DNA from: Thalassotalea ponticola
Lineage (GTDB): Bacteria > Pseudomonadota > Gammaproteobacteria > Enterobacterales > Alteromonadaceae
NCBI RefSeq assembly: GCF_041379045.1
Contig: NZ_CP166871.1
Location: 1,054,001 to 1,118,000, forward strand
DNA length: 64,000 nt
Direction of reading: 5' to 3'
The translations under genes were made by a program, and so were the position numbers. Below are positions 39,335-59,985 of the stretch, piece after piece; the stretch's first letter is position 1; each line of letters starts with the position of its first letter. The notes beneath the pieces are model-generated. The model saw nothing but the letters and a program-made list of their open reading frames with translations, was not told where the DNA came from and did not search any database.

Positions 39335-40756
39335 TTAGTAATTTATTTGATATATGGAAAGTAATTCATTTTGGATGATCAATTGCATGTTAAATTGCTG
39401 CGTTAAATCTGAGGTTAGTTTGTCAATAATCTGATTATCTTTTGTAGATGTGTATGATGAACTAACCAAATACTTTATTTTTTTATTGTTCATTTCTGAG
39501 ATAATTGCTTCTTTATAAATGTTATAGTTACTATTTTTTTTATCGCTAAAAAATTGACAAATTGGCCAAGAGTAATAGTAGTAGAATGTATTTTTTAAAT
39601 TTGAATAAGCATCAATTGTAATGGGGGGGCGAGTGGAACAACCTATATACACAAAAGAGCCATAAGCTTCCGTTGGTAATGAACCAATGGTTCGAATAAT
39701 CTCTGTGTGTTGTGGTGAAAAGTAATTCATTGCTAGCTCAGTTCGTTTAAATCCAAAAGCTAATACAATAGATAAGCAAAGTAGTTGAACAAATTTTGAA
39801 ATTGATTCTTGTTGAATTAAAATTGCGATAAGAGTAATTAGAACAAGAATTACGGGAGCATAATGGTACTGAATAAACTTCCCCTGTATCAGAACAATAA
39901 AAAAACCCAAGATTGCTAAACCAGCTAATCGATTACATAAAATCACGTGCTCAGATTTCTTTTTAGTTATGAAAATAATAAAGAGAGATAAAGCTATAAA
40001 AAGAAAAATGCCGGTATATATCAAGCTTGTTGATATAAATAAGTCCCAACTATTTCGTTTTGAATAAAGATTCGTCAATTCAGATAAATATAAAAAGTAC
40101 TCGGGAGAATAGACGTAGCACCCTAAAATATATATTGCTCCTCCTAGGACAAAAAATGTTAAATTTTTTAATTCTGTGCTGCGTTTTTTATTTTTTCGGT
40201 TCCAAAAATAAGTTAATACAGGGACAAGGTAAAAATAGGGTTTTCCGAGTAAGCCTATTAATGCTAATACTAACTCTAATTTTCTGGGCGTATAATTTAT
40301 GACTACTGACTTTAGTAGCCATGGAGTCAGCAGTAGAAACGATATATAGTCTTTGGCGTAAATTATATTTGGAGAATGAATGAACAAAGTAAACAGAATA
40401 ATAAAACCAATGAACTGGTAGTGCTCTAATTCAATATCTTTGCATGTTTTTGCTAATAAGATATAAAAAGTTATAGTTAATAAGCAATAGTAAATGGTTA
40501 ACGCTGTTATTGGTGGTACTCCCAAATTATTCGAGATAATTATCGGGGGAGAGTAATATAGCAGTCCTATAAGTGGAGATATTTCAACAAAATCAATGTA
40601 ATACTTTTTACCTTCAAAAAAGTTATTTGCAAGCTGACTCAAATAATAGTTATCTGGATGAATCACAAAATTATTGGATAGCAAAAGAATAAAACTACAT
40701 AAAACAACCAAATGTAGTAATTGGGATTGAAGCATATGACGTCTTACGTTAAGCAT
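39335..40756 (-). CDS. GT-C-like membrane glycosyltransferase, last gene of the glycan operon
   Basis: This protein of 473 residues has about ten membrane helices. The first periplasmic loop contains an aspartate (HPDNYYL) and, further on, a YIDFVEISPLIGLLYY motif. The product of 42800 has a matching layout, typical of GT-C enzymes that use a polyprenyl-phosphate sugar. A small C-terminal soluble domain follows. It overlaps gtrA by 8 bp. The DNA is strongly AT-rich, in contrast to the housekeeping genes. The substrate is unknown, and the enzyme class is inferred from topology and motifs, not from a recognised family match. Confidence 0.62.
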   Translation of the reverse strand: MLNVRRHMLQSQLLHLVVLCSFILLLSNNFVIHPDNYYLSQLANNFFEGKKYYIDFVEISPLIGLLYYSPPIIISNNLGVPPITALTIYYCLLTITFYILLAKTCKDIELEHYQFIGFIILFTLFIHSPNIIYAKDYISFLLLTPWLLKSVVINYTPRKLELVLALIGLLGKPYFYLVPVLTYFWNRKNKKRSTELKNLTFFVLGGAIYILGCYVYSPEYFLYLSELTNLYSKRNSWDLFISTSLIYTGIFLFIALSLFIIFITKKKSEHVILCNRLAGLAILGFFIVLIQGKFIQYHYAPVILVLITLIAILIQQESISKFVQLLCLSIVLAFGFKRTELAMNYFSPQHTEIIRTIGSLPTEAYGSFVYIGCSTRPPITIDAYSNLKNTFYYYYSWPICQFFSDKKNSNYNIYKEAIISEMNNKKIKYLVSSSYTSTKDNQIIDKLTSDLTQQFNMQLIIQNELLSIYQINY

Positions 40757-41126
40757 TCACATAGACCCAATATTTTAAAACAATATAGCCAATCCATGGC
40801 ATCGATGCGGCAACTAAGAGTATACAAAGTTCATCAGGGATAGTGAGTTGTTGACAAATTTCAGTAGTAACATAAATTATCAAGCAGTTTAGTAATGCTA
40901 ATATAAAGTATTTTTTTAAGCTACTTAAAGAAAGTTTATGAGAGAAACTCCATTTTGTATTTAGTGTATAAGCTATTATAAAAGAAAGTAAAAATGCAAA
41001 TGTGTTTGCTACGAATATGTCAAATAACAATAGCTTAACGCACATATATGCGATAAATATATGCGTTAGTGTATTAGCTATACCTACACAGCAAAATTTA
41101 ATAAATTCCTTCCTAATAGTTATCAT
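40749..41126 (-). CDS. gtrA: GtrA-family membrane protein (lipid-linked sugar flippase candidate)
   Basis: This small protein of 125 residues has four membrane helices. The opening FIKFCCVGIANTLTHIFIAY and the middle NTKWSF motif are typical of GtrA/DPMS-like proteins, which are thought to flip polyprenyl-phosphate-glucose across the membrane. It overlaps the methyltransferase gene by 4 bp (ATGA), so it is translationally coupled. With the GtrB-type transferase two genes upstream it completes a classic donor-supply pair. Confidence 0.85.
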   Translation of the reverse strand: MITIRKEFIKFCCVGIANTLTHIFIAYMCVKLLLFDIFVANTFAFLLSFIIAYTLNTKWSFSHKLSLSSLKKYFILALLNCLIIYVTTEICQQLTIPDELCILLVAASMPWIGYIVLKYWVYVNA

Positions 41127-41905
41127 CTATTTAACTCTTTTTTTTCGTCATTACTCGTTTTTTTAGCTATTAAACTTATGGATAAACCTAAAGGGGCGGG
41201 GACAAATTTTAATAGCCAAGTTTCAAATCGAAATATATGAAACAAAAAGCTATTCAATAGTTCGTTGGGGGGCGAGGAGCCTGTAGGGGTAACCCTCCTC
41301 GTAACTTTGTCGAAAAAACGAGTTAGAACAGCTAAGGGTAACAATAAAAAGTTGAAATACTGTTTATGAACTACTTTAAATCCAGAACTTTCAACTTTTT
41401 TAACTAAATCATCTATTTTATAGCGGCGAAAATGATGTAGTTTAATATCGTGAGGACCAAACAATTGCGGAATAGATGGAACAGTAATAAGAATCTTTCC
41501 ATTATTCTTTAAGCTATCATATAAAACTTTTAATGCATCAACATCTTCTTCTATATGTTCTAAAACATCAAAAAGGCAGACAACGTCAAATGCGTCGTTT
41601 GAAAACGGGTACTCGTAGGGGAGTGATCCTTTTATTATTTTTATATCTGTAACCGTCCTCGCAAGTTTGACCGCCTCATCATTCATTTCAATCGCGGTAA
41701 CAGTGCCATAGTTTCCTAATAGCTCTAAATTACCTCCGACACCACAACCTACTTCAATAATAGATGAGTTGGTATCGGATAAAGTTTCATCTAATAATTT
41801 TTTAATAACTAAACGACGTCCTCTAAACCACCAATGGTTTTGCTGTTGTTTAAACATTTCGGTATAGCATGATAGTTCCATATCGGGGTTAATACTCCTT
41901 TTCAA
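41123..41905 (-). CDS. Class I SAM-dependent methyltransferase
   Basis: This protein of 260 residues has a Rossmann methyltransferase fold. Motif I is IIEVGCGVGGNLELLGNYG near residue 50, then AIEMNDEAVKLA and the post-I acid loop FDVVCLFDVLEHIEEDVDAL. A C-terminal hydrophobic part (residues 185-250) may rest on the membrane. The opening (MFKQQQNHWWFRGRR) is typical of methyltransferases in polysaccharide clusters. It probably methylates a glycan or its lipid carrier. It overlaps the GT2 gene by 17 bp. Confidence 0.82.
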   Translation of the reverse strand: MKRSINPDMELSCYTEMFKQQQNHWWFRGRRLVIKKLLDETLSDTNSSIIEVGCGVGGNLELLGNYGTVTAIEMNDEAVKLARTVTDIKIIKGSLPYEYPFSNDAFDVVCLFDVLEHIEEDVDALKVLYDSLKNNGKILITVPSIPQLFGPHDIKLHHFRRYKIDDLVKKVESSGFKVVHKQYFNFLLLPLAVLTRFFDKVTRRVTPTGSSPPNELLNSFLFHIFRFETWLLKFVPAPLGLSISLIAKKTSNDEKKELNR

Positions 41906-42803
41906 TTATATAAAGAGGTCTTTGCTTAGCTTCCATATATATTCGGCCAATGTACTCACCTAATATCCCAATTCCAATTAATTGAATTCCACCTAAAAAT
42001 AAAATAATGACTATTAGTGAAGAGTAGCCAGGTACATCGATTCCAGAAAGCAAAGCTAGTGCTATGATAAACACTCCATAACAGAAAGATAGCAACGCAA
42101 CTATTACGCCAATATATGTCCAGATTTTAAGTGGGATCGTGGAAAAACTGGTTATGCCCTCTATGGCTAAATTCCATAACTTCCAAAATGTAAATTTACT
42201 TTCACCATTTTCTCTACAAGGGCGCGCATAATTGATCGTTGACGATTTAAATCCAACCCAGGAGAATAAACCTTTCATGAATCGTTGAGTTTCTGGTAAC
42301 TCATTAATATGATCGACAACCACTCGCCCCATCAAACGAAAATCACCAACGTTTTCTGGTATTTTATGGTCAGCCATTTTGTTATGAAAATAATAAAAAC
42401 CTTTTGCAGTTAGACGTTTTAAATAGCTATCACTGTTTCTGTCTACTCTTTTAGCTAAAACAATTTGATACCCTTTTTGCCATTCATCGAGTAACTTTAA
42501 AACTAATTCTGGAGGATCTTGCATATCGACGTCTATCGGAATGACAGCGTCACCTTTGGCATATTTTAATCCTGCGGTTAACGCAGCCTCTTTGCCAAAG
42601 TTTCTAGAAAATGAAATAATTCGAATTTGTGGAGTATTACGTTTCTCTTCTCGTAACGTTCGCAAGGTTTCGTCATCTGAGCCGTCATCGATAAATAAAA
42701 ATTCAAAGCCGACATTTTTGCATTGCATGACCTCTTTCATCTTTTTGATAAAAAGGCCTACACTTTGTTGTTCATTATAAACCGGACATACTATTGATAT
42801 CAT
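41889..42803 (-). CDS. GT2 glycosyltransferase, GtrB/DPM1 type
   Basis: This protein of 304 residues loads a sugar onto polyprenyl phosphate. The GT2 domain has VCPVYNEQQSV at the start, IDDGSDDETL near residue 40 and the catalytic DVDMQDPPEL near residue 96. Two C-terminal membrane helices (IWTYIGVIVALLSFCYGVF and LIVIILFLGGIQLIGIGIL) anchor it, followed by YIGRIYMEAKQRPLYI as in the GtrB/ArnC/PglD-like group. It overlaps the next gene upstream by 4 bp. Together with GtrA it supplies the lipid-linked donor for the GT-C-type enzymes of this operon. Confidence 0.88.
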   Translation of the reverse strand: MISIVCPVYNEQQSVGLFIKKMKEVMQCKNVGFEFLFIDDGSDDETLRTLREEKRNTPQIRIISFSRNFGKEAALTAGLKYAKGDAVIPIDVDMQDPPELVLKLLDEWQKGYQIVLAKRVDRNSDSYLKRLTAKGFYYFHNKMADHKIPENVGDFRLMGRVVVDHINELPETQRFMKGLFSWVGFKSSTINYARPCRENGESKFTFWKLWNLAIEGITSFSTIPLKIWTYIGVIVALLSFCYGVFIIALALLSGIDVPGYSSLIVIILFLGGIQLIGIGILGEYIGRIYMEAKQRPLYIIEKEY

Positions 42804-44419
42804 TTATCACTTCCTATGGGTAAATAAACATCGTAGGTTTTGCCACTGATGAAAGAAATTTGGTCACCACTATTGAAGTAGTGTCCTAATATTTTCTTAA
42901 GTTGTGGGTTTTTTTTAATAAAGCTTTCATATTTGAAGTTTTCAGTAAAGTAGGATGGCGATTCTGAGCTTTCAATAAATATAGCTTTTGGTTGATAATC
43001 CGAAATTTCTTTATAGATTTTATCCATTACTGGTAAAGTTATGTCGTTAATTTTTTGTATTTGGTCTTTAGTTAATTTTTCGGGGGCTCTTTGCATAGTA
43101 TCAATGGCTGGGAGAGGCCAAAGTGCCGGGAATCCTGATACCCAATTGGCCTTTGTATAGTGTCTTATAAAGGTTGATGGCCAAACATTTGTTGAAAAAA
43201 CGTAAACGTTCTGATTTGCGAAGTTTCGATTTATGTAATCAGCAGTATCTCGAAAAGAGTCAATTCCCAAAGACTGAAATGATGGTGCCTTTTCTTGTAG
43301 TAATTTAGCGACTACGTAACTTTTATTTATTAGGTGATAAGAAGAAAAAAGAATGAGAAAAGTAGCCAGGGTCATTAATGTTTTAGGTGAATTTAAAAAT
43401 GATGAAATCTGTTTTAAATAAACAATCGTTGTAATGCCAAAACTGAATGTCAATAAAACAGAATGTGGAAGTAACTGATATGAATAGTGTGACTGCAATA
43501 AAAATACAAGGAGGCCGATAAAACTTAAATATAAAAAGTAGTGAATTAAATTACGCTCAATTTTATTCTTTATTGTAAAACTTACGGCTATCAAAAATAG
43601 CAATAGCAGTAGGTTTACTTCTAAATTGAAAAGTTCAATAGGAATTCCATAAGCCCAATACGTTGCAACGGCCAAGGGAACCATCTTAGGAATATAATTA
43701 GGTTCGAGTACAATCAGATAGAGATAAAAAAAACAGCTACAAATTGCAATTAAAGACGATTCTAAGGTGAGTAAATTTTTAACCACTGGTTTTTGAATAA
43801 ACCTCCAAAGTTCTGCACCTATAAAAAACAAGATAAAATAAGGTTTTATGCAGATACCTATAGTTGCTGAAAATGCCACTATAGTTTTACTTTTAAAAGG
43901 TAAGGGGGGGGGATTTAACCCTTGAAAAAAAGTCGAAATAAAATACGGTAAAAGTAATATTATAGCTAGATGGTCTCGCTGACCGAAGTCGTATTGGGCA
44001 CTTCCATAACAGCTAACAATAACAGCTATAAATAAGTAATACCTTTCGGTCGAGCTAAAATGACTTTGCTTAAAATAACTTACAAAATTAATGATAAAAG
44101 GTAGCGTCACGATAAATGCATATAGCTTTAGAGACAATACGCTTGAAAACTCGAACGCCTGATTTATAGCAACGACAGGTACCAACAAGTAAAAAATAAT
44201 GGGAGGGTTTAACTCCATTATTTCCGAATAAAGTAATTTTCCTGCTAACCACTGTTCTGTTGCAGTGTAAAGCCAGCCAATATCATGATTTAAGTGTAGG
44301 GCTAGATTCGAAAATACATAATACAGGATAAGGCTAGCAAGACTTACTAACCTTATCCAATATATGAAACGTTTTATATCGAATGCGTTTGATTTTACAA
44401 ATAATGCTTTACTAATCAT
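42800..44419 (-). CDS. GT-C-like membrane glycosyltransferase
   Basis: This protein of 539 residues has about eleven membrane helices. The first loop has NHDIGWLYTATEQWLAGK and IMELNPPIIFY, the acid-bearing arrangement seen in GT39/GT83-like enzymes. A C-terminal soluble part (residues 390-539) follows. ATG 44419 is chosen because AAGG lies 5 bp upstream; the in-frame codon at 44452 would overlap the preceding gene. The same layout recurs in the last gene of the operon (39335), so the operon carries two transferases that could add sugars to different positions. Confidence 0.65.
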   Translation of the reverse strand: MISKALFVKSNAFDIKRFIYWIRLVSLASLILYYVFSNLALHLNHDIGWLYTATEQWLAGKLLYSEIMELNPPIIFYLLVPVVAINQAFEFSSVLSLKLYAFIVTLPFIINFVSYFKQSHFSSTERYYLFIAVIVSCYGSAQYDFGQRDHLAIILLLPYFISTFFQGLNPPPLPFKSKTIVAFSATIGICIKPYFILFFIGAELWRFIQKPVVKNLLTLESSLIAICSCFFYLYLIVLEPNYIPKMVPLAVATYWAYGIPIELFNLEVNLLLLLFLIAVSFTIKNKIERNLIHYFLYLSFIGLLVFLLQSHYSYQLLPHSVLLTFSFGITTIVYLKQISSFLNSPKTLMTLATFLILFSSYHLINKSYVVAKLLQEKAPSFQSLGIDSFRDTADYINRNFANQNVYVFSTNVWPSTFIRHYTKANWVSGFPALWPLPAIDTMQRAPEKLTKDQIQKINDITLPVMDKIYKEISDYQPKAIFIESSESPSYFTENFKYESFIKKNPQLKKILGHYFNSGDQISFISGKTYDVYLPIGSDK

Positions 44420-44439
44420 TTTACCTTCATGATGTTCTT

Positions 44440-46404
44440 TTAAGGTGAGCAAATTGCCGGAAAATATTTGTCAATATCAGGTTTATAATGACTGCAGAGC
44501 TTTTCTTTCATGAAATGTTTAGGAGCCTTTCCGTCATAGTCATCAAATACAGAAATATGTCGCTCTGTTATATCAACTATAACAAATTGATTTAACTCGG
44601 GTATTAAGGCCAGTTGCCAGTTCTTGTATAAAATAGAACGGTGTATTTTTCCAAGTATCTCTTGGTAAGATTCTTCTTTAACAACAGAGTGTCCTTGCTC
44701 GTTTACAGTATAGTGGCCAATAGAGTTATAAATGACACTTTTAACATCGATATCACTATTGTTGAGTGACTTCATCGGTAAAGAAGACTCGACATAAATA
44801 TAATTTTCTTCTGAGTCTATTGAAGAGACTATTGGTAGTAATCGACCTTCGGTTTGTTCGATTTCTATATCCACTTGTTTGGCGATGGTGGGAATAATAT
44901 CGAGATTCGAAAATAAGCCATTATGAATTTTGCTCTTACTGACGCTTTGTCCTTTTTCATATTTAGCAAAAGCTAGCAAAATCTGTGATTGGCTATGGTC
45001 GAGGACGTTAGTTCCATGGCCATGAGAAGTTGATTTTATATATTCTACATTTGTCGTCATCTTATCTTTATCTAGAGCAAAACTCTCTCCATGGTCAGAC
45101 ACGACATAAACGAGCGCATTGTCCAAGTAGCCCTTGCTATTTAATTTATTCATTAAGTCAGCAAATTGATTATCTACTTGAGGTAGTAAAGATTGATACA
45201 TAAAGTGTGTGTGATTGCCTTGCCATAGATCTTCGTTAACCTCGATAAAATTTTGAGATGTATATGGCCAATGCAACATACAAAAATGAATAGCTAAAAA
45301 GTTTGCTTGAGTCGGAGATAATTGCTCTAGAGCTGCGTCATTAAAGCTGTCGGGTTCAAAAGTCCTACCAACAGCGCGATTCATGTTGATAAATGGCAGG
45401 AAGTAATATCCAAATCGAGTATTGGTGAGAATGTTTAAAATTGGAAGATCGGAAGCGCTGTTTATTAAATTGTCTGTTATACCAAGTTTGGGGCCAACTA
45501 TATTGTCGAAACCATAGCTTGTATCTATGCTGTTAAACCGTCTTTCATCTAATGCCCAAGTGGTGTTATACCCCTCATTTTTAATAGTATTTATGAAAGG
45601 TATATTTTTATTTACTAAATTATCTGGAGTTAGATTGAACCGCCCTCCATGTGAAATTGGATATTGGCTTTTCAGCAAGCTTAACCAAGAAACATAAGTT
45701 CTTGGGAATACGGTATAAGTTTTGTCAAAGACTTCAGCACTTGTGAGAAACTTATTTAGGTTAGGTAATAAATTGTGTTTGAACCCTTTGTGAGCTAGGT
45801 GATCCGGCCTTAATGCATCTACACCTATGATGATGATATTGGGTGTTTTATCTGATTTGAATTTGTTTTCTGGCGTATAAAAAAATGGAGGGGTCAAAAA
45901 CAAACAGAGTAACGCACACCAAATAATAGCTTGTCTTTTAGTGTGATATTTATAAACGTTATAAACGAATAAAACGAGAATTGTTGTTGTTAAAAATGTA
46001 ATAAGCGGAATAGAAGATAGCCAAGAAGTGCGCAGTATACCCAAAAGTGACGTGGGACTAACGTAAGCGTTAACGGCCAATACAGTCAGAAAATGAAGAG
46101 AACAAATATTAAACCAAACGAGTGTTTTAGCCGAATCATCAGAAAGTTTATTGAAAAAACACTTACAAGAAACCGTAATGACATATGCCCAAACTACATT
46201 AATGACTATAAATAGTGTAACAAAAATAATGACTTCTATGATAACTGCAAAATTAATGAGGTTCAGCACTTTTTCATTCGACAAAAGAGTCAGTATGGAA
46301 AAGTTTGATATGGGCTGTAATGAGCTTCTAAATGCTAAACAGCACACACTAAACAAGGCTATAAGAGCCAAGGTACGGAAAAATGTTCTTTTAATTGTTA
46401 TCAT
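44440..46404 (-). CDS. Membrane-anchored sulfatase-fold enzyme (phosphoglycerol/phosphoethanolamine transferase-like)
   Basis: This protein of 654 residues has five N-terminal membrane helices (residues 1-175) and a periplasmic alkaline-phosphatase/sulfatase domain. Metal-site motifs are NIIIIGVDALRPDHL near residue 190 and VVSDHGESFAL near residue 405. The expected nucleophile position holds threonine (FPRTYVSWLSLL), as in LtaS/EptA-type transferases, rather than the Cys/Ser of true sulfatases. It therefore probably transfers a phospho-substituent to a surface glycan or lipid; sulfatase activity is unlikely. It overlaps the small gene upstream by 14 bp. Confidence 0.78.
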   Translation of the reverse strand: MITIKRTFFRTLALIALFSVCCLAFRSSLQPISNFSILTLLSNEKVLNLINFAVIIEVIIFVTLFIVINVVWAYVITVSCKCFFNKLSDDSAKTLVWFNICSLHFLTVLAVNAYVSPTSLLGILRTSWLSSIPLITFLTTTILVLFVYNVYKYHTKRQAIIWCALLCLFLTPPFFYTPENKFKSDKTPNIIIIGVDALRPDHLAHKGFKHNLLPNLNKFLTSAEVFDKTYTVFPRTYVSWLSLLKSQYPISHGGRFNLTPDNLVNKNIPFINTIKNEGYNTTWALDERRFNSIDTSYGFDNIVGPKLGITDNLINSASDLPILNILTNTRFGYYFLPFINMNRAVGRTFEPDSFNDAALEQLSPTQANFLAIHFCMLHWPYTSQNFIEVNEDLWQGNHTHFMYQSLLPQVDNQFADLMNKLNSKGYLDNALVYVVSDHGESFALDKDKMTTNVEYIKSTSHGHGTNVLDHSQSQILLAFAKYEKGQSVSKSKIHNGLFSNLDIIPTIAKQVDIEIEQTEGRLLPIVSSIDSEENYIYVESSLPMKSLNNSDIDVKSVIYNSIGHYTVNEQGHSVVKEESYQEILGKIHRSILYKNWQLALIPELNQFVIVDITERHISVFDDYDGKAPKHFMKEKLCSHYKPDIDKYFPAICSP

Positions 46405-46684
46405 TTTTACTCACTACTGATTTACTATTTGTAGACGATTCTTTGTTATCTTTATCTTTAGGTATTACAAACTTTTCAAATTCCGAAATCAGCTTACTCT
46501 CCTCTCGTGATGAAGGCCATTGACCTGATTTTATATATCGTTGTGCTGCAATATTTAATTCATCTTCGTCCTGAAAAATGGTCTCTTTAAAGGCGTAGTC
46601 CTGATAACCCAAATAAATTATCGGTCCCCAGATAATTGCCAATAGCGCAGTCAACAACGCTTTGTGAAAGTTTTTTTGACTCAT
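46391..46684 (-). CDS. Small single-helix membrane protein, first gene of the glycan operon
   Basis: This protein of 97 residues has one membrane helix near the N-terminus (ALLTALLAIIWGPIIYLGY) and a polar Ser/Lys/Asn-rich tail ending in SKNDNN. No family recognised. The ribosome-binding site AAGGAG is strong, and this is the first gene of the seven-gene minus-strand operon. It faces the flp gene across 322 bp, so the two operons share an upstream region. Confidence 0.65.
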   Translation of the reverse strand: MSQKNFHKALLTALLAIIWGPIIYLGYQDYAFKETIFQDEDELNIAAQRYIKSGQWPSSREESKLISEFEKFVIPKDKDNKESSTNSKSVVSKNDNN

Positions 46685-46855
46685 TACCGTATCTCCTTAC
46701 TTAGTAATACTCCGCCTAGCTTTAATCACATTGATAACGAATCTTAAAAAATAAGTTCAAGAAATTTTGGCTAGGTCATTATTCTTTTAGTGATCCTAGA
46801 TTAGTTATGGATGGGCATTTTTGGCAATTACAGGGACGTATTTGTTCTAAACTTC

Positions 46856-46890
46856 GCAATTTCGTGTCAAACAATGCAATTTCGTGTTAA
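46856..46890. promoter_or_regulatory. 20-bp-period direct repeat between the glycan and Tad operons
   Basis: GCAATTTCGTGT occurs at 46856-46867 and again at 46876-46887, and both copies continue with YAA (CAA, then TAA). The period of 20 bp is about two helical turns, so both copies face the same side of the DNA. This is the usual look of a tandem activator-binding site. It lies 117 bp before flp and 172 bp from the start of the glycan operon. The rest of the 322-bp region (46685-47006) holds no gene. Confidence 0.6.
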
Positions 46891-46948
46891 GCGAAACCCA
46901 AATTAGCCTCTAGTCTTAATCTGTCACTGTGCAAAAACAGTAACATTT

Positions 46949-46976
46949 GAACAGCAAGGATTGGTGCTTGCTGTTC
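46949..46976 (+). promoter_or_regulatory. Perfect hairpin in the flp leader
   Basis: GAACAGCAAG (46949-46958) pairs with CTTGCTGTTC (46967-46976) around an 8-nt loop, 30 bp before the flp ATG. The following tail (TTATTTG) is too poor in T for a firm terminator. It may protect the abundant pilin mRNA, bind a protein or act as an attenuator. Confidence 0.5.
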
Positions 46977-47006
46977 TTATTTGAATTAATTTCAGGAGAT
47001 GAATAG

Positions 47007-47198
47007 ATGAATACTTTCAAAAAGTTAATGAAGGACTTTATTGAAGATGAGAGCGGTTTAACAACAGTTGAGTACGCAATAGCTGGAGCGCTAGTTGCAG
47101 GATCATTGGTTGTTGCATTTACTCAATTGGGGCAGGCAGTAGGCTCAACAATTAGTTGTTTAACAAGTGCTGTAGGTGGCGGTTCTACAAACTGTTAA
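47007..47198 (+). CDS. flp: Flp/Fap-type pilin (type IVb)
   Basis: This is the major pilin subunit, 63 residues. The short leader ends at Gly17, followed by LTTVEY with Glu at +5 and Tyr at +6, the G-x4-E-Y cleavage motif of Flp pilins. A hydrophobic helix (AIAGALVAGSLVVAFTQLG) then drives assembly. The mature C-terminus is small and has two cysteines (SCLTSAVGGGSTNC) that could form a disulfide, which is unusual for a Flp pilin. A strong GGAG site is present. It is the first gene of the Tad locus. Confidence 0.95.
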   Translation: MNTFKKLMKDFIEDESGLTTVEYAIAGALVAGSLVVAFTQLGQAVGSTISCLTSAVGGGSTNC

Positions 47199-47232
47199 TC
47201 AGTGTATAGCTTACTAACTACGGTGCGTGGTG

Positions 47233-47799
47233 ATGCTCGATTACGTAAAGTTAGCGATGATGTCAGTCATATTGCTAGTGTTTTTAATATCGTTTTATAC
47301 GGATTTACGTTTTCGACGCATCCCAAACATCTTATGCATCGCTGCACTTTTTGTGGGGCTTGTGTTGCAATTCGTCTATAACGGTATATCTGGACTGGTA
47401 GACGGATTACTTTGCGTTGGGCTGGCTTTTCTAATCCTTTTTCCGTTTTTTGCATTACGGGTTCTCGGCGCAGGAGATGTCAAATTGATGATCGCTGTTG
47501 CCAGTATGATGAACACCGAATTCTTCTTATTGACGCTTGGTTATGGCATGGTCGTTGGTTTTTTTACCAGCGTACTGTTCGCTCTGTATAAACTGGGGTT
47601 CAAAAAATTGATAGCGATAATTCGTCATTACTTACGCTGTTTGTATTTGAGACAGTTTATTTTGAGTAACGATAATGGCCTTATGAAGCTTAAGGTGCCT
47701 TATGCACCCGCGTTGGCTCTTGGTTGGGTAATTGCTTGTAGTCAAAACGAAGAAGTATTGTTTTTAGTATCCGCATTTCGTTATCAGGTGGGAATTTAA
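47233..47799 (+). CDS. tadV: Flp prepilin peptidase (TadV/CpaA)
   Basis: This membrane aspartic protease of 188 residues cleaves the Flp leader. The two catalytic aspartates are in YTDLRFRRIPN near residue 25 and in the GAGDVKLM (GxGD) motif near residue 80. About five membrane helices are present. As in other TadV/CpaA proteins, the methyltransferase domain of PilD is absent. GTG codons at 47227 and 47230 precede the ATG chosen. It lies between flp and the AAA+ ATPase gene. Confidence 0.92.
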   Translation: MLDYVKLAMMSVILLVFLISFYTDLRFRRIPNILCIAALFVGLVLQFVYNGISGLVDGLLCVGLAFLILFPFFALRVLGAGDVKLMIAVASMMNTEFFLLTLGYGMVVGFFTSVLFALYKLGFKKLIAIIRHYLRCLYLRQFILSNDNGLMKLKVPYAPALALGWVIACSQNEEVLFLVSAFRYQVGI

Positions 47800-47801
47800 T
47801 T

Positions 47802-49343: not shown

Positions 49344-49366
49344 CGATAATAATTGGGAGCAAACAA

Positions 49367-50170: not shown

Positions 50171-50189
50171 TTAAGTTAGGACTATAACA

Positions 50190-51922: not shown

Positions 51923-51954
51923 TTGATAATGAGAGAAATATTTGATCGAGGTGA

Positions 51955-53304
51955 ATGATGTTAGAGAGAGGTCAGTCGATTTTTAAACAGAGGGGTAACA
52001 TCTTGGTGTTGTTCACCTTAGGTATTTTCGTCATTTTAGGTATGGCCGCGTTAGCCCTTGATGGCGGGCATATCATGCTTAACAAAAACCGACTGCAAAA
52101 CTATGTTGATGCGGCCGCTTTGCATGCGGCAAAAACATTAGATACTGGCGGAAGTCATGCAGAAGCTCGATCTGCAGTGGTCGAAATGTTGACGACTAAT
52201 CTGGCCCATGGTGACGCATTTGAAATTGCTAACGGTGTCTCGCCGTTGCCGGCACCCGGCACCGTACTAACTAGCAATACAATAACCGCACAGGTGAGCG
52301 TCGATTTCTCTTTACGCCCAGATCCTTTTACCAGCAGTACAGATACCGCAGCTCGTTATGTCATGGTTCGCGTTATTGATGTGGAGTTGAATGGTTTCTT
52401 TGCTGGTTTATTTGGTTTAGATAAAGAAGTTTCAGCTTCAGCAGTAGCTGGTCCGAGTACCGCAATTACATTCTGCTCTAATGACTTAGTGCCGATGATG
52501 ATTTGTGGAGATTCATCGCAAACAGCCGAAACTAACTTTGGCTTGGGCGCAGGTGAGCTATTGGCACTTAAAATTGACGCTGATCCTAATTCCCCCATAG
52601 GACCAGGTAATTTTCAATTAATCGAACTAGATGGGTTAAGTGGCGCTAACGATTTACGCTATGCCATGGCTGGAGCAGACGCGAGTGAGTACTCATGTTT
52701 TTCGCCTGGTGTTGGCAATGCAAGCGTACCGACCCAGCCGGGTAATGTAGTTGGTCCTGTTGCCGACGGCCTCAATACTCGGTTTGGTGATTACCACGGT
52801 ACGATGAAGGGGGAAGAAACTAGCTACCCAAGAGATCAAAATAATTGTGAAGGTAACCTGATTGATTTTGATGAGGATGGCAATGTTGTTATACCTCAGA
52901 AAGATAATGACGACGGTACGACATCAGATGACTACTATACCTATCAAAATTATTTGGATGATATTAGCGCACAAGCCTGTAATACCTCTTCAACGTATAT
53001 TCGGCAAGGAGACTATATCGATCCGGATAGTAACAATACCGTAAAACCTCATCGCCGTGAAATACGGGTTGTTATAGGTGACTGTGGTGACGGTTCCATC
53101 AATGGTTCAAATAATGTCGACTTTTTAGGCTTTGGTTGTTTTTTCCTTACTCAACAAGTTGCACACACTGGAAACGAAGCCTATGTGGTTGGAGAGTTCA
53201 ATGAAGTCTGCTCTGGCACTGGCACGCCATCAGGTGTCGCGGAAGATAATCCAGGCCCATACACGATAGTTCTTTACCACGTACCAGGAAGTACTACATC
53301 ATGA
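51955..53304 (+). CDS. TadG-like pseudopilin/pilus-associated protein
   Basis: This protein of 449 residues has an N-terminal TadG-type helix (QRGNILVLFTLGIFVILGMAALALDGGHIMLNKNRLQ in outline), followed by YVDAAALHAAKTLD. This is the classic Tad_N region. A large extracellular region (residues 150-449) has many Asp, Asn and several Cys and could be an adhesive or tip domain; a DEDGN motif near residue 305 suggests calcium binding. GAGGTGA precedes the ATG pair at 51955/51958. It overlaps tadE by 4 bp. Confidence 0.85.
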   Translation: MMLERGQSIFKQRGNILVLFTLGIFVILGMAALALDGGHIMLNKNRLQNYVDAAALHAAKTLDTGGSHAEARSAVVEMLTTNLAHGDAFEIANGVSPLPAPGTVLTSNTITAQVSVDFSLRPDPFTSSTDTAARYVMVRVIDVELNGFFAGLFGLDKEVSASAVAGPSTAITFCSNDLVPMMICGDSSQTAETNFGLGAGELLALKIDADPNSPIGPGNFQLIELDGLSGANDLRYAMAGADASEYSCFSPGVGNASVPTQPGNVVGPVADGLNTRFGDYHGTMKGEETSYPRDQNNCEGNLIDFDEDGNVVIPQKDNDDGTTSDDYYTYQNYLDDISAQACNTSSTYIRQGDYIDPDSNNTVKPHRREIRVVIGDCGDGSINGSNNVDFLGFGCFFLTQQVAHTGNEAYVVGEFNEVCSGTGTPSGVAEDNPGPYTIVLYHVPGSTTS

Positions 53305-53777
53305 TACGTCAGAGGAGCTTCGCCAAAAATATTGAAAGGCAGCAAGGTTTGGCCGCAATAGAGTTTACTTTAATTTTACCTTTGCTGCTGTTTTTCACCT
53401 TTGTGGTCGCTGAGTTTTCACGTTTGTTGTATCAGTATAATGCCTTAAATCACATTGCCCGAGATGCTTTGCGTTATGCCATAAATGATGCAAGAGATGG
53501 CTCGACGGGAAATGTATCAACAACGAATATTGCTGCCGAATCAAGAAATATTGCTATGTATGGAGGGCTTACTGCTAGCGGTATCTTATTACCTAATTTA
53601 GCGGCTACTGATTTTGTTTTTACAGATGCGGTGGGTACGGATGGGGAGTTTATTACCTTAACGGTAACCTATGATTGGCAGCCGTTGATTTTTAGCCAGT
53701 TGCCTTTGTTTGTCTCTGCTAACCGTATCGACATGACATTTCCTCTCGTTGTGCGTTATACCATGAGAGCGTTATAA
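53301..53777 (+). CDS. tadE: TadE-like minor pseudopilin
   Basis: This protein of 158 residues has the TadE pattern: a basic leader, then GLAAIEFTLILPLLLFFTFVVAEFSRLL, in which the conserved Glu is 5 residues after the Gly. A globular beta-rich extracellular part follows. TadE proteins are processed by TadV and are needed for pilus assembly. The gene overlaps the previous one by 4 bp and the next starts 1 bp after its stop. Confidence 0.9.
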   Translation: MIRQRSFAKNIERQQGLAAIEFTLILPLLLFFTFVVAEFSRLLYQYNALNHIARDALRYAINDARDGSTGNVSTTNIAAESRNIAMYGGLTASGILLPNLAATDFVFTDAVGTDGEFITLTVTYDWQPLIFSQLPLFVSANRIDMTFPLVVRYTMRAL

Positions 53778-53778
53778 G

Positions 53779-54270
53779 ATGAATGTACGCAACAAAGTTA
53801 AAGGTTTGTATACGGTAGAATTTGCCATTGTTGGTAGCGTATTTTTACTTTTGTTTTTTGCGGCAATAGAAATTTCTCGTTTGATGTTTACATGGAATGT
53901 TTTAACCGAAGTATCAAGACGCGCAGCCAGAGTCGCAACAGTGTGTAATTTACTCACCGACAATACAGATATCACGTCAATACCGGTAGCCACGTCACCA
54001 CCTTCAGGTGTCACCAGTGCAGCGATTGCAGGCGTGGAGAACATTATCCCAAACTTGAGTGCAGCTAATATCAGAATTTCATATTTAACGCGGACGGGCG
54101 CCAATGCATCTTCGTTGTCTACGCTGAATTTGGTTCGAGCCGAAATCATTAATTATCAACATGACCTGCTGATCCCTGGTCTGTTTATCACTCTGAACTC
54201 ACCAACGTTTAGTACAACGTTACCAGCTGAGAGTTTAGGGGCAACCCGATGGGGATATACAACGTGTTAA
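53779..54270 (+). CDS. tadF: TadF/TadE-like minor pseudopilin
   Basis: This protein of 163 residues has a short leader ending in KGLYTVEFAIVGSVFLLLFFAAIEISRLMF, in outline, so it is a second TadE-type pseudopilin. The mature part has a pair of cysteines (CNLL and the last residue, TTC). TadE and TadF proteins usually come as such a pair. The assignment to TadF rather than TadE rests on gene order. It is followed by tadZ at 60 bp. Confidence 0.88.
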   Translation: MNVRNKVKGLYTVEFAIVGSVFLLLFFAAIEISRLMFTWNVLTEVSRRAARVATVCNLLTDNTDITSIPVATSPPSGVTSAAIAGVENIIPNLSAANIRISYLTRTGANASSLSTLNLVRAEIINYQHDLLIPGLFITLNSPTFSTTLPAESLGATRWGYTTC

Positions 54271-54330
54271 CAGAAAACATTATTTATTGTGAGGGTCTCA
54301 TTAGCACAGAATTTTAATACCGAGGATGCG

Positions 54331-55590
54331 ATGAAAAATAAAGTACGTAAATTGTCTGATTGGCAAGAAAATAATAAAGGCTTGAGTCAACCAAAAGTGA
54401 TAAAGGAAAAATCAATAATGTCTTTACCTGTATTAATCGAATCACTATTTGTTTGCGCTGACCCGAATTTACGAGTGACTGCAGAAACCTTTTTACAGCA
54501 AATTAAAAACCTAAAGGTAAGCTATGACAGCCAGCTAAATACTACTAATAAAGACTATCAAGTGGTCTTTATCGCCCATATAGGGAATGAAAATGAGACT
54601 AGACGTAATCTAGAACGTGCTAGCAATGCAGGCTATCCAATTGTATTAATTGCTGAAAATATTTCTCAAGAAATTATGAAGCAGGCGATTTCTCTTAAAG
54701 TGCAAGATGTATTATCGGTGACTGAATTTGAGAAGGAAGCCTTTAACTCACTCAAAAAAATAAGCGATGAGATCTTAAGTCAAGTTGAATTAGCGCCGGT
54801 CATTTCAATTATCAATGGCAAGTCTGGCAGTGGTGCTAGTTTTATTGCCAACTGTATGGCACAACTCGTCGCAGAAGGCAGTAGTAATAATAAAAATATT
54901 GCAGTTTTAGATGGTGATTTACAATTTGGCACCTTGGCGGATAGTATGGGGTTTAGCCCCGATTACTATTTAGACCAGGCGCTACAAGATGCGGATGAGC
55001 TAGATTCTACTGCGGTTAAAGCCATGATGTGCCATCGTGATAACCTTAGTCTTCTACCGGTAAAATCCTTTTCTCAGTTAAACGAGTTGAGTCATATCGA
55101 TCAGCTGCAGCTATCCCAACTAATACACAAAATTCGCTCTTGCTACTCTTATTTGTTATGTGACTTATCTCGAGGGTTAGAGCGTTTTTCATTCAATGTT
55201 TTGGATGTATCCGATTCAATTTTTATTGTTGTGCAGCAGAATATTGTCAGTATTAGACAAGCCAAGGCGCTTGTTAAACAATTGACCGAACGATTAGGTA
55301 TTCCTAAACACAAGATTTCGATTCTGCTTAATCGCTACTCTAGCAAGTATAGCACAATCGGCGCTAAAGACGTCGCAGAGGCAACCGGCGTAGAGTCGGT
55401 TTTCATTATCGAAAACGACCACCAGTTTGCCAATGCCTGCACCGATTTAGCCAAAACCGTCAAAGACATCGCCAACTCAAAAGTCATTAGACAAAATATT
55501 CGCACGGTTATTGCAGAAGCAACACCTGTTGCATGTGCAGAGCAACAAGCCACAGGCAGTTTTTGGTCATTCTTTAAGAGGGATAGGTAA
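54331..55590 (+). CDS. tadZ: Tad pilus localisation ATPase-like protein TadZ/CpaE
   Basis: This protein of 419 residues combines an N-terminal receiver-like domain (residues 28-140, with VLIAENISQEIMKQAISLKVQDVLSV in outline) and a MinD/ParA-like ATPase domain. The deviant Walker A reads INGKSGSGASFIAN; the usual GK(T/S) lysine is replaced by alanine, as known for several TadZ proteins that localise the pilus machine at the pole. Walker B-like VLDGDLQFGTLAD and DLSRGLERF follow. ATG 54331 with GAGG upstream is preferred over GTG 54289. It abuts tadA with no gap. Confidence 0.9.
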   Translation: MKNKVRKLSDWQENNKGLSQPKVIKEKSIMSLPVLIESLFVCADPNLRVTAETFLQQIKNLKVSYDSQLNTTNKDYQVVFIAHIGNENETRRNLERASNAGYPIVLIAENISQEIMKQAISLKVQDVLSVTEFEKEAFNSLKKISDEILSQVELAPVISIINGKSGSGASFIANCMAQLVAEGSSNNKNIAVLDGDLQFGTLADSMGFSPDYYLDQALQDADELDSTAVKAMMCHRDNLSLLPVKSFSQLNELSHIDQLQLSQLIHKIRSCYSYLLCDLSRGLERFSFNVLDVSDSIFIVVQQNIVSIRQAKALVKQLTERLGIPKHKISILLNRYSSKYSTIGAKDVAEATGVESVFIIENDHQFANACTDLAKTVKDIANSKVIRQNIRTVIAEATPVACAEQQATGSFWSFFKRDR

Positions 55591-56907
55591 ATGGAAATGG
55601 TCTCAGAAAATTACTTTGAGTCATTAAGTGTACAAGACTTACAAGTAAAACAAGAACTATATAATCAACTATTAAAAATGATGGATTTGTCGGTATTAGA
55701 AACAATGGATTCTGCCAATGCCAAAGAACAAATTACCGAAGCTTGTAACCAGTTACTTAACGAAACATCTCGACCATTAAACTTGTCGGTACGCCAGAAA
55801 ATTATCAAGCTTATTATCGATGAAATATTAGGTCTTGGTCCATTAGAAACCTTGTTTGCTGATCCGACAATCTCCGATATCTTGGTGAATAATTACGACA
55901 ACATCTTTGTTGAAAGGCACGGCAAACTCGAACGAGTACCAGTGCAATTCTACGACAATAATCACTTGCTCAATATCATTGATCGCATCGTATCCGGCGT
56001 TGGTCGTCGTATCGATGAGTCGTCTCCTATGGTCGATGCTCGCTTAAAAGATGGCTCTCGTGTTAACGCAATTATTCCGCCACTGGCATTAGATGGCCCT
56101 TCACTTTCTATTCGCCGTTTCACCGTTGAAAAACTTAAAGCGCGTCAATTAATTGAATATCGCTCTATGAGTGAAGAGATAGGCAAATTGATCCAAGCTG
56201 CTGTGCACGGCAAATTGAATGTATTAATTTCTGGTGGTACCGGCAGTGGCAAAACAACACTCCTAAATATTTTATCCGGCTATATACCATCAGATGAGCG
56301 CATCATTACCATTGAAGACTCTGCTGAGTTACAACTGCAACAACCACATGTTGTCAGACTGGAAACGCGTGTTGCCAATATAGAAGGTAAGGGGGAGGTG
56401 TTACAACGTGATTTGGTAAAAAACTGTTTGCGTATGAGACCGGATCGTATCGTTATTGGTGAGGTACGTGGTGCGGAGGCTATCGACATGTTAGCAGCTA
56501 TGAATACTGGTCACGAAGGTTCACTAACCACCTTACACGCTAACAGTCCGCGTGACGCACTAAGTCGATTAGAAAATATGGTTTGTATGAGCGGTCTTGA
56601 GATGCCTGTTCACAATATTCGTGCACAAATTGCGTCTGCGATCGACTTGGTCGTGCAACTGCAACGCCAAGAAGATGGTAAGCGCCGTATTACGAGTGTT
56701 TCAGAAATAAATGGGATGGAAGGAGATGTGATAACCATGTCGGAGATATTTACTTTTCAACGTCGCGGCAAATCAGAAGATGGGGAAATCTTAGGCGAAT
56801 TTAAAGCGACAGGTGTTGTTCCTAATTTCCACAAACAAATTCTGCTTAAGGGGATAGATTTGCCTCATTCTGTATTTGGTGTAGATATCGAAACCATCAA
56901 TTTCTAG
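55591..56907 (+). CDS. tadA: Tad pilus secretion ATPase TadA/CpaF
   Basis: This hexameric ATPase of 438 residues powers extension (and in Caulobacter also retraction) of Flp pili. Motifs: Walker [15 protein letters not shown] near residue 213, the Asp box IEDSAELQL, Walker [15 protein letters not shown] and the His box [15 protein letters not shown]. The N-terminal region carries the conserved [12 protein letters not shown] and GLGPLETL segments. The length and motifs agree with the TadA family. The gene follows tadZ directly (TAA then ATG). Confidence 0.96.
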
Positions 56908-56916
56908 GAGAAACGT

Positions 56917-57882
56917 ATGAGTACCGAATTAACCTTCCTGTTATTGATTTTTGGTGCGGTGATATTCATGTCACAAACCTTGCTAGTGTCAGTATACAGC
57001 CCGCAACGGGCTAAAACCAAAATGCTGAAAAACAAGTTAAAAGATTTGGCAGACTCTGGCGATACACAACTCGACTTGATAAAAGCGAAACGGTTGGAAA
57101 AGTTACCTCCAGCACTTCGCTACATTGAAGCTGAAACCTTTGTCGGTGAGATTACTTCCAAACTGGAAATGGGAGGTTCTAAACTATTTGGCTATCAATA
57201 TATTTTATTTACTCTACTTATTATCGCTGTTGTTTCACCGTTGGTGTGGACGTTTACTCGAGATTGGATATTTGTGGTAGCGGTTGCTGCCATTATTTGT
57301 TTTGGCGCATACGTTAAATTAAACCGTGATATCACAAAGCGTTTTGAAAAAATTGAAGAGCAATTTCCCGAAGCATTAGATGTTCTTAAACGTGGTTTAC
57401 AGGCAGGTTATGCATTTTCAGAGGCATTAAAACTTGTGTGTGAGGAATCTCAAGGTGAATTAGCCTACGAGTTCAATTTAATGTTTCATCAAATCAACTT
57501 TGGTAATGACATTAAAACCGCACTGTATAATTTTGTAAATCGCGTTCCTATTACTTCAGCGATGGCATTTGCCAGTGCAGTTAGTATCCAAAAAGAAACC
57601 GGTGGTAATCTCGCAGAGAAAATTGAAACGCTATCTCGGGTGATCCGACAGCGATTCAATTTTAAGAGAAAGGTTAAGACTTTGTCCGCCGAGGGGCGTT
57701 TATCGGCATGGATATTGGTTTTAACTCCGTTTTTTTTATTTGCCATGCTACATCTTGTTTCACCGGGATATTTAACTCAATTGGTGGCTTCTGAGGAAGG
57801 TATTGATCTATTGAAATTTGGTCTGATCAGCATGATGGTGGGTATTTATTGGATCAGCAAACTTATTCAGATCGAGGTTTAG
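56917..57882 (+). CDS. tadB: Tad platform protein TadB
   Basis: This inner-membrane platform protein of 321 residues has one N-terminal helix, two central helices (ILFTLLIIAVVSPLVW and IFVVAVAAIICFGAYV), the type II secretion F domain (residues 150-275, EEQFPEALDVLKRGLQAGYAFSEAL) and a C-terminal pair of helices. It pairs with TadC around the TadA motor. AGGAG lies before the ATG; the stop is 1 bp before tadC. Confidence 0.94.
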   Translation: MSTELTFLLLIFGAVIFMSQTLLVSVYSPQRAKTKMLKNKLKDLADSGDTQLDLIKAKRLEKLPPALRYIEAETFVGEITSKLEMGGSKLFGYQYILFTLLIIAVVSPLVWTFTRDWIFVVAVAAIICFGAYVKLNRDITKRFEKIEEQFPEALDVLKRGLQAGYAFSEALKLVCEESQGELAYEFNLMFHQINFGNDIKTALYNFVNRVPITSAMAFASAVSIQKETGGNLAEKIETLSRVIRQRFNFKRKVKTLSAEGRLSAWILVLTPFFLFAMLHLVSPGYLTQLVASEEGIDLLKFGLISMMVGIYWISKLIQIEV

Positions 57883-57883
57883 T

Positions 57884-58852
57884 ATGGACTATTTACTGTC
57901 ACTAATTCGTCAATACACAGATGATCAACAAACGGTGCAAATCATATTTTATACTGTTACGGGGCTGGCTGGAGTTACGTTAGCTGCAGCAATTAGTTTG
58001 CTAGTTTCCGGTGTCTATTCACCATTGAAAGTGCAATTGCAACGTCTTAAAAATGGTGAGAAAGAGCCGGTGTCAAGACATGAAGGTTTCACCAAGTCAT
58101 TGGAGCATACGCTTGATAAATCAAGTTGGTTACCGGCAAAAATGGGTGGTGATAGTGAAAGTAAAACGTTATTAATCCATGCCGGTTATCATAATGAAAA
58201 TGCTTTAAAAATTTATAATGCCATAAAGCTTTTCTTACTTTTAGCTGCAGGGATTGGCGCGTTAACTGTGTTACAATATCTACCAAACATGTCATCAACA
58301 GTACAATTTTATATTGTCCTGTTGATTGTCGGTTTAGGCTATATCTTACCTGGTCTTGTTCTTACCCATCTTGCCAACAAACGCATGAATGGTTTTCGGA
58401 AATTTTTCCCCGATGCGTTGGATTTGCTGGTGGTCTGTTGTGAGTCTGGTTTGGGGTTACTTGAAGCATTTCAGCGCGTCAGTAAAGAGATGGAATTTTC
58501 TCATCCAGAGCTATCTCATGAGTTAGCGTTAGTGTGTCGCAAAGTTCGTGTTGGTTATTCGATGCAGGAAGCATTGCATGAATTCTCTTATCGAACAGGC
58601 CTTGAGGACATACGTGGCTTAAACTCCGTGATCGTACAAAGTTTACGTTTAGGCACGGGGATTGCTGATACATTACGAGTATATGCGGATGAGTACCGTG
58701 ACAAACGGTTGCAAGCTTCTGAAGAAAAGGCGGCTAAGCTTGCTACTAAGATGTTGTTTCCTATGCTTTTTTGTATTTGGCCGTCATTTTTTATTGTTGC
58801 CGTAGGACCTGCTATATTAAAAGTGATGAGTGTTTGGGATAGAGCATTTTAA
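57884..58852 (+). CDS. tadC: Tad platform protein TadC
   Basis: This second platform protein of 322 residues is homologous to TadB. One N-terminal helix is followed by two helices in the middle and the T2SSF domain (FFPDALDLLVVCCESGLGLLEAF near residue 175, then RLGTGIADTLRVYADEYRDKR). A C-terminal helix (MLFCIWPSFFIVAVGPAIL) ends the protein. Near-zero spacing with tadB points to a fixed 1:1 expression of the two. Confidence 0.94.
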   Translation: MDYLLSLIRQYTDDQQTVQIIFYTVTGLAGVTLAAAISLLVSGVYSPLKVQLQRLKNGEKEPVSRHEGFTKSLEHTLDKSSWLPAKMGGDSESKTLLIHAGYHNENALKIYNAIKLFLLLAAGIGALTVLQYLPNMSSTVQFYIVLLIVGLGYILPGLVLTHLANKRMNGFRKFFPDALDLLVVCCESGLGLLEAFQRVSKEMEFSHPELSHELALVCRKVRVGYSMQEALHEFSYRTGLEDIRGLNSVIVQSLRLGTGIADTLRVYADEYRDKRLQASEEKAAKLATKMLFPMLFCIWPSFFIVAVGPAILKVMSVWDRAF

Positions 58853-58872
58853 TAAAGCATGGTGGAGTACAT

Positions 58873-59985
58873 ATGCATAAGTTTCAAAAAATACTAAAAA
58901 CAATGTTGGTGATATTTATAATGACAGGGTTATTTGCTTGTCAGTCGATTGAAGAGTCGCCAACCTCAATGCAACAGTATGCAAGACAAGATTTATTGGG
59001 TGACGAGAAAACTACTACTCACCTGACAGCTAAAACCTTTGAAAGTGCTTTTGAGCTTGCACAGAAATCCGAAAATTCTGATGACCTAGAACAAGCCCTG
59101 TATTACTACATTCAATGTCTAGAATTTCAGCCTGATAACGCTGAGGTGTTGTATCGAATAGCAAGAATCCACGATCGCGCAGGCAATCGTAAAATTGCCA
59201 CTCGAGCCTACAGAGAAGCTCTGCTAAATGATAATACAATGGTCATGGCGCATAAAGCGCTAGGGATTATTGAGGTTGCAAATGGCAATTTTGAACGTGG
59301 TAAGAGTCACTTGTTGCAAGCCATATTTCACGATCAAAAACGTCTAGAAAGCCTTGGTGCGACAAAGGAAATGGGGTCTTTTGTCCCTGACTTGGAATCT
59401 CCTATTGAAGCCTATAATGTAATAGGTGTTTTAGAAGACATGGAGAGAAACTTTGGATTAGCGAGAACCTATTATCAACTCGCTCTGAAGGCTAACCCAA
59501 GAACCGCTAACATTCTGTCAAATATCGGTTACTCCTACTATCTCTCTGGTGAATTAGTCCTAGCTGAAAGGTATTTCAAAAAAGCTATTAATATCAATAA
59601 TACATTTGAAAGAGCTTGGACTAACTTGGGGCTGGTCTATGCACGGAAAGGTCAATATGATAGGGCCATTAAAACGTTTAAACAGGTCATGCCTGAACAT
59701 GATGCTTATAACGATCTCGGATATTTTGTTCTACTCGAGGGGCGCGTAGAAGAGGCCGAATACTTTATTAAAAAGGCAATTAGCCTTTCACCTAAGTATT
59801 TTGAAAAGGCCAATGTAAATTTAGAAAAAGTAGAGATGAAAAAGCGCGAACTTAAACTGGATAAAGAGTCAGTTCCGGAAGTTACCACGGGAGCAATATC
59901 CTTGCAACAGAGTAATTCGAATGACATGTCTGAAACTGACATTGTTGTGTCTGCAGACACAACAATGGTAAATACGGGTCAATAA
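58873..59985 (+). CDS. tadD: TPR lipoprotein TadD
   Basis: This lipoprotein of 370 residues has a signal peptide ending in LFAC (Cys23) and about six tetratricopeptide repeats between residues 70 and 310 (for example TANILSNIGYSYYLSGELVL and RAWTNLGLVYARKGQYDRA). TadD acts at the outer membrane in secretin assembly. The C-terminal 50 residues are a Ser/Thr/Asp-rich tail without repeats. It is the last typical gene of the Tad locus. No tadG-like gene or terminator follows before the mutarotase gene at 22 bp. Confidence 0.92.
   Translation: MHKFQKILKTMLVIFIMTGLFACQSIEESPTSMQQYARQDLLGDEKTTTHLTAKTFESAFELAQKSENSDDLEQALYYYIQCLEFQPDNAEVLYRIARIHDRAGNRKIATRAYREALLNDNTMVMAHKALGIIEVANGNFERGKSHLLQAIFHDQKRLESLGATKEMGSFVPDLESPIEAYNVIGVLEDMERNFGLARTYYQLALKANPRTANILSNIGYSYYLSGELVLAERYFKKAININNTFERAWTNLGLVYARKGQYDRAIKTFKQVMPEHDAYNDLGYFVLLEGRVEEAEYFIKKAISLSPKYFEKANVNLEKVEMKKRELKLDKESVPEVTTGAISLQQSNSNDMSETDIVVSADTTMVNTGQ

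Follow-up and report, generated by a model that had tools for sequence, protein, structure and literature searches.

In its initial annotation, a 64-kb stretch (the window) of the Thalassotalea ponticola genome, a single contig of 3.35 Mb, was said to hold a run of seven AT-rich genes that overlap on the minus strand and are separated by 322 bp from a 14-gene Tad pilus operon, and this anatomy was borne out by the sequence. The present analysis concerns that seven-gene cassette, and in particular the two genes nearest the pilin gene flp, here called s97 and sulf. The cassette occupies positions 39335 to 46684, each gene overlapping the next; it is followed by a divergent intergenic region of 322 bp (46685 to 47006) and by flp at 47007, the first gene of the plus-strand Tad operon that extends to 59985. 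The GC content of the cassette is 0.333, and all 210 other window stretches of the same length are higher (0.402 to 0.458).

Genes of the cassette and the Tad operon

The s97 gene (46391 to 46684, on the minus strand like the rest of the cassette) encodes a 97-amino-acid protein that carries the motif RYxxxGxWP and is predicted to cross the membrane once; no Pfam or NCBIfam family matched it. The sulf gene (44440 to 46404) encodes a membrane-anchored protein of the alkaline-phosphatase superfamily, which Pfam placed in PF00884 when the window proteins were scanned. In an alignment to the sulfatase motif VCSTAR, the Cys is matched by Thr236 and the Arg by Trp240. Thr236 is kept in 58 of 58 family rows, the position of Trp240 is Trp in 57 of 58, and the metal-ligand-type residues D437 and H438 are kept in 60 of 60. 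Sulf lacks the C/S-x-P/A-x-R nucleophile motif of S1 formylglycine sulfatases, as it has Thr at that place. Thr is the nucleophile of PptA, and sulf shows the pattern of EptA/PptA-type enzymes, namely a Thr nucleophile and Asp/His putative metal ligands behind membrane helices. The N-terminal domain of these transferases, EptA_B_N (PF08019), was absent from the Pfam matches of sulf at E ≤ 1. The presence of Thr where sulfatases carry Cys suggested that sulf is a probable phospho-transferase.

The remaining five genes point to the handling of lipid-linked sugars. GT-C550 (42800 to 44452) is a membrane glycosyltransferase with the predicted GT-C fold of ArnT/PMT-type enzymes, although it matched no Pfam family, and its profile matched no PDB sequence at E ≤ 10. 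It is followed by a GtrB/DPM-type GT2 protein (41889 to 42803; PF00535), likely to synthesize an undecaprenyl-phosphate sugar, which scored 303.9 bits to the NCBIfam family PgfS, below the equivalog cut-off of 500 bits. The others are an S-adenosylmethionine-dependent methyltransferase (41123 to 41905; PF13489 and PF08241), a GtrA-type flippase-like protein (40749 to 41126; PF04138, 50 bits against a cut-off of 26.1) and GT-C473 (39335 to 40756), an orphan membrane protein for which no homologue other than itself was found by sequence search but which is related to GT-C550 (hhalign probability 97% to the GT-C550 alignment).

The Tad operon encodes Flp, prepilin peptidase, RcpA, RcpC, TadZ (named by position and AAA_31), TadA, TadB, TadC, TadE/F and TadG. 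The flp gene (47007 to 47198, plus strand) encodes the major Tad pilin and candidate acceptor; its product scored 24.5 bits to PF04964, under the cut-off, yet its sequence is that of a pilin. The other 13 genes (47227 to 59985, plus strand) run from the prepilin peptidase through a tetratricopeptide repeat lipoprotein. Among them is a 513-amino-acid ATPase (47802 to 49343) that recurs in related Tad loci and has weak matches to Sigma54_activat (16.3 bits) and IteA (20.5 bits).

Linkage of s97 and sulf to pilus genes

With the sulf sequence alone as query, scanning the genomes gave no match, and a scan of the named genomes with a family alignment (A1) found 37 sulf loci. At 26 of these, flp lies within the flank examined, and at one (L035) tadA-D adjoin a broken sulf. 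Three others are on short or cut contigs (L016, which has an L,D-transpeptidase, L018 and L024), five have no Tad genes nearby (L036 to L039 and L041) and two belong to Ferrimonas (L033 and L040). Both Ferrimonas genomes carry Tad genes on the sulf contig, with about 11 kb between sulf and flp in one and about 29 kb between sulf and RcpA in the other.

A census of 117 Shewanella genomes, in which Tad was called from RcpA at E ≤ 1e-60 and sulf at E ≤ 1e-20, found Tad in 35 and sulf in 37: both were present in 34, Tad only in one, sulf only in three and neither in 79. In 31 of the 34, sulf and RcpA are on a single contig, 5.9 to 6.7 kb apart, and in the other three (G512, G515 and G525) sulf and Tad are on separate draft contigs. 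The sole Tad-only genome (G517) has RcpA on a contig of 4,964 bp, which is uninformative on sulf. The sulf-only genomes are G463 and G478, where a type IVa pilin gene adjoins sulf, and G491, where a broken sulf lies by tadA-D. The G491 locus (L061 / L035), with tadA-D, no RcpA match and a frame-broken sulf, has the appearance of joint decay. At another Shewanella locus (L057, G465:C1:2915887-2917331), RcpA spans two overlapping frames.

Among 15 genomes of the window's own genus, ten have Tad and five have sulf; all five are Tad-positive, with sulf 3.7 to 11.4 kb from RcpA. None of the five Tad-less genomes has sulf, two of these being under 90% complete. On the RcpA tree, the distribution of sulf needs at least seven changes (49 rows), or six when L065 (the G517 locus) is dropped, and within the window's genus sulf presence is interleaved. 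These patterns indicated that sulf has been gained or lost more than once.

The small partner accompanies sulf at Tad loci. RYxxxGxWP is encoded directly upstream of sulf in the window and at 31 of 32 other Tad-linked loci, and the 32nd has K for R; the motif is also present at both Ferrimonas loci and at L016 and L024. It is found at none of the 16 sulf loci linked to type IVa pilin genes, nor at L095, L097, L100 or L061. This distribution ties s97 to the Alteromonadales-type Tad context and not to the distant Tad locus L095. Collectively, the Tad-linked core of the cassette is the pair of genes nearest flp, s97 and sulf, rather than the glycan genes.

Relatives of sulf also lie beside type IVa pilin genes, at 16 loci in total. 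The pilin gene is close to sulf at L036, L037, L038, L041, L059, L060, L062 and L063, and about 3 kb away at L039. A second search, through 390 genomes from the order that includes Marinobacter, yielded 14 matches, four of them known already (L036, L037, L038 and L041). Seven of the ten new matches adjoin a type IVa pilin gene (L094, L096, L098, L099, L101, L102 and L103), and at L095, in an order other than that of the window, the sulf relative lies beside a Tad cluster with flp (44%), RcpA (45%), RcpC and an AAA ATPase. That members of a single enzyme family adjoin pilin genes of two kinds pointed to a pilin or pilus as the target.

The Flp proteins of related loci are 43.9 to 81% identical to that of the window. 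Among the loci on the tree, the C-terminal loop of Flp contains C[LM]xxA and SxxC at 27 of the 30 with sulf and at none of the 18 without it. This motif was chosen post hoc, and there are usually four informative independent pairs for it, all in the same direction (p 0.125). Within the window's genus, sulf-less Tad loci (L047 to L051) have two or three flp genes, and sulf-bearing loci (L052 to L055 and the window) have one. Flp copy number was rejected as a correlate of sulf, as two to three of five independent pairs were informative, in the same direction (p 0.25 to 0.5), and single-flp loci without sulf occur in other genera.

Two further plus-strand genes (36726 to 39198; PF12833 and PF03734) belong to this type of Tad locus: an AraC-type regulator (36726 to 37640) with an N-terminal part outside Pfam, and a YkuD L,D-transpeptidase (37594 to 39198) with a peptidoglycan-binding domain. 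The two adjoin each other in several Tad loci, and a distant match to the regulator sits between sulf and flp at L095. The L,D-transpeptidase was rejected as a member of the sulf module because it adjoins this Tad type both with and without sulf.

The glycan genes and the slot downstream of sulf

The genes downstream of sulf were compared at 33 distinct Tad-linked loci, over up to 9 kb as far as the stretches reach, and were classed by BLAST clusters with Pfam on representatives. The set comprised the window, L005-L015, L017, L019-L023, L025-L032, L034, L052, L053, L054, L056, L057 and L058; the duplicates L055 (of L009) and L066 (of L005) were omitted. This slot exchanges its contents. It holds the GT-C550 set at six loci, PMT_2-type genes at six and Wzy_C-type genes at five, so that a lipid-linked-sugar transferase of one of these three types is present at 17 of the 33; a second sulfatase-fold gene is present at three and an arylsulfotransferase at one. 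The second sulfatase-fold gene lies directly after sulf (L005 8528-10462, L006 12981-14867 and L054 11779-13674). An arylsulfotransferase-like gene (PF14269) follows sulf in Shewanella (L010 12051-13400) and in Ferrimonas (L033 12008-13369). At the type IVa-linked loci L036 and L038, sulf is followed by a gene of the Wzy_C cluster (Pfam checked on L036).

As a control, 124 open reading frames flanking 17 sulf-less Tad loci and 124 lying within 4.6 kb downstream of sulf at the 32 loci other than the window were scanned in the same way; stretch geometry and locus numbers differ between the two sets, L069 was omitted for its short length, and loci that are related do not count as independent. The sulf-downstream frames included ten GT2 members, five each of GtrA, PMT_2 and GT1, and four of Wzy_C. 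None of these families was among the 25 listed for the sulf-less flanks, so each has at most three members there, and a BLASTP comparison of the 124 sulf-less-flank frames with the slot families gave two GGDEF matches only.

The initial annotation had tied the whole glycan operon to the Tad locus and proposed that their adjacency be sought in relatives. The set of GT-C550, GtrB, methyltransferase and GtrA was indeed found at six loci, every one beside sulf and Tad. However, GT-C550 is rare, with matches in 2 of 146 relatives and in 4 of 117 Shewanella genomes; three of these four are strong and 2.1 to 3.9 kb from sulf, and the fourth is a weak, partial match whose contig is not that of sulf. 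Thus, the operon as a conserved Tad partner was rejected; s97 and sulf travel with Tad instead, and other Tad-sulf loci hold different sugar transferases in this place, or none. The shared 322-bp divergent region, a second element of that proposal, is present in the window, but at four of the six GT-C550 loci sulf and the glycan genes converge, and a single shared divergent promoter is therefore not the rule. At one of the six (L053 11156-19855, genome G010), gtrB, the methyltransferase gene and gtrA are duplicated around s97, sulf and GT-C550, and the second gtrB is split over two open reading frames.

These data bear on the possibility that only s97 and sulf belong to Tad, the other five genes being a transient, AT-rich insertion with no tie to the pilus. 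The low GC content of the genes, the lack of a homologue for GT-C473, the absence of all counted slot enzymes from 12 of the 33 loci and the nearest relative (G009, L052), which has the same layout without glycan genes, speak for such an insert. A chance arrival, however, fits poorly with the recurrence of GT-C550, GtrB, methyltransferase and GtrA at sulf in six loci and two orientations, or with the lack of matching families around sulf-less Tad loci. This explanation is accordingly judged somewhat unlikely.

Proposed pilus decoration, its alternatives and known systems

The locus comparisons describe a real, repeatedly assembled pilus-linked cassette, and the genomic context of sulf and the slot genes supports pilus decoration. 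On balance, with modest confidence, the cassette is best read as decorating the Tad pilus: s97 and a conserved, phospho-type sulf would form its core, to which the glycan genes would be an optional addition. Decoration had been suggested in the initial annotation; the suggestion is supported in part by the context of s97 and sulf, with the weight moved off the glycan genes. Enzymes of both classes would draw on phospholipid or polyprenyl-phosphate donors and are expected to work on the periplasmic side of the membrane. First, sulf would sit in the inner membrane with s97 as its partner and, by means of Thr236 and a bound metal, remove the phospho-headgroup of a phospholipid. Second, it would pass this group, before assembly, to a Tad subunit at the periplasmic face, where Flp, TadE/F and TadG would await assembly and the modifying enzymes would act; Flp is the likeliest acceptor in view of the loop motif described above. 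Third, the sugar transferases, which are exchangeable, would come from the slot downstream of sulf. For the window, this means that a sugar would be attached to undecaprenyl phosphate by GtrB, assisted across the membrane by GtrA, altered by the methyltransferase and handed by the GT-C proteins to that surface target or to one nearby. The gene linkage, the predicted folds, the conservation of active-site residues and the swapping of slot genes are observed; Flp as acceptor, the phospho-form, its donor, the sugar and the meeting of both modifications on Flp are the inferred parts of this scheme, which may serve in evasion of pilus phages or in tuning adhesion.

Several observations weigh against this interpretation, in addition to the Tad-sulf loci with an empty slot and the convergent glycan genes. 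Half of the Tad genomes in the window's genus (5 of 10) have no sulf. Among 394 genomes of the order, Tad was found in 54, sulf in nine and both in only six, so that sulf belongs to certain Tad loci rather than to Tad in general. Loci that are related, moreover, do not provide independent evidence. Two of the ten new sulf relatives, L097 (on a 4,913-bp contig) and L100, have no pilus gene in the stretch examined. Finally, the best structural matches by Z of the sulf model (predicted local distance difference test score 83.7) are sulfatases, not transferases. EptA, PptA and MCR structures were not among the 50 entries that VIA-align listed, a list that may not reach as far as them.

Alternatively, sulf and the sugar genes could modify lipopolysaccharide, a phospholipid-derived polymer or another surface glycan that aids Tad adhesion, their proximity to Tad reflecting shared regulation and pilin not being the substrate. 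Most EptA- and LtaS-like enzymes have lipid A or polymers as their substrates, O-antigen is a common target of GtrA/GtrB sets, and the slot families Wzy_C and GT1 are known in polysaccharide pathways too. A lipopolysaccharide enzyme would nevertheless have no need to lie beside both type IVa pilin genes and Tad, and at L061 a frame-broken sulf adjoins a Tad locus cut down to tadA-D; this account appears unlikely. That sulf is a hydrolase or a non-catalytic regulator controlling Tad assembly, as proposed for YejM, is improbable, since its active-site residues are kept in 58 to 60 rows, beyond a regulator's need.

The proposed decoration of Tad pili by s97 and sulf can be compared with several known systems, of which PptA of Neisseria and the TfpO/TfpW cassettes of Pseudomonas come closest. 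In Neisseria, pilin receives phospho-forms from PptA (PMC10434233). PptA, which is EptA-like, and sulf are both membrane-anchored members of the alkaline-phosphatase superfamily with a Thr nucleophile and a known (PptA) or likely (sulf) pilus target. Sulf differs in having no PF08019 among its Pfam matches and in the place of its gene, which is linked either to Tad genes, where s97 accompanies it, or to type IVa pilin genes. The Tad pilin Flp1 of Aggregatibacter actinomycetemcomitans carries phosphorylcholine and is said to be glycosylated (PMC6182317), a combination of phospho and glycan modification like that proposed here. The candidate enzymes there are PptA homologues (PMC6182317, PMC10434233), and the excerpted text of PMC6182317 describes neither Tad linkage nor a sulfatase-like partner. 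The s97-sulf pair is likewise not described in the titles and abstract openings searched on Tad, Flp and pilin modification, with subscription journals largely outside that search. With its close tracking of Tad in Shewanella, its retained active-site residues and its relatives beside type IVa pilin genes, the pair is a candidate Tad-pilin modifier from a family other than the PptA homologues.

For the glycan genes, the window resembles GtrABC/Pgf systems in having GtrA, GtrB (304 bits to PgfS) and a specific membrane transferase, but its GtrB is below the PgfS cut-off, the set is Tad-linked, and a methyltransferase and a second GT-C-like protein are added. PglL homologues lie by pilin genes in 21 of 31 cases (PMC3643930), and Wzy_C genes, the class of the PglL/PilO O-oligosaccharyltransferases, come after sulf at several Tad-linked and type IVa-linked loci; the window has no Wzy_C gene, and Pfam reported no PglL motifs for the scanned members. 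In Pseudomonas, pilin is glycosylated as a defence against phages by TfpO and TfpW, whose genes adjoin the pilin gene (PMC11841053). These cassettes of P. aeruginosa share with the slot the exchangeable modifying genes, whereas the window cassette lies by Tad genes, is led by a sulfatase-fold enzyme and includes a GT-C550 outside Pfam. Tentatively, s97-sulf may represent a family of phospho-form transferases that is distinct from EptA/PptA and dedicated to pili of both the Tad and the type IVa kind, s97 being a Tad-specific adaptor. The pair would head an exchangeable "decoration slot" of sugar, phospho or sulfo transferases through which marine Gammaproteobacteria may vary their Tad pilus surfaces, perhaps against pilus-specific phages. 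If true, the idea of pilin accessory cassettes would extend from type IVa to Tad pili, with a bearing on adhesion, biofilm and pilus phages.

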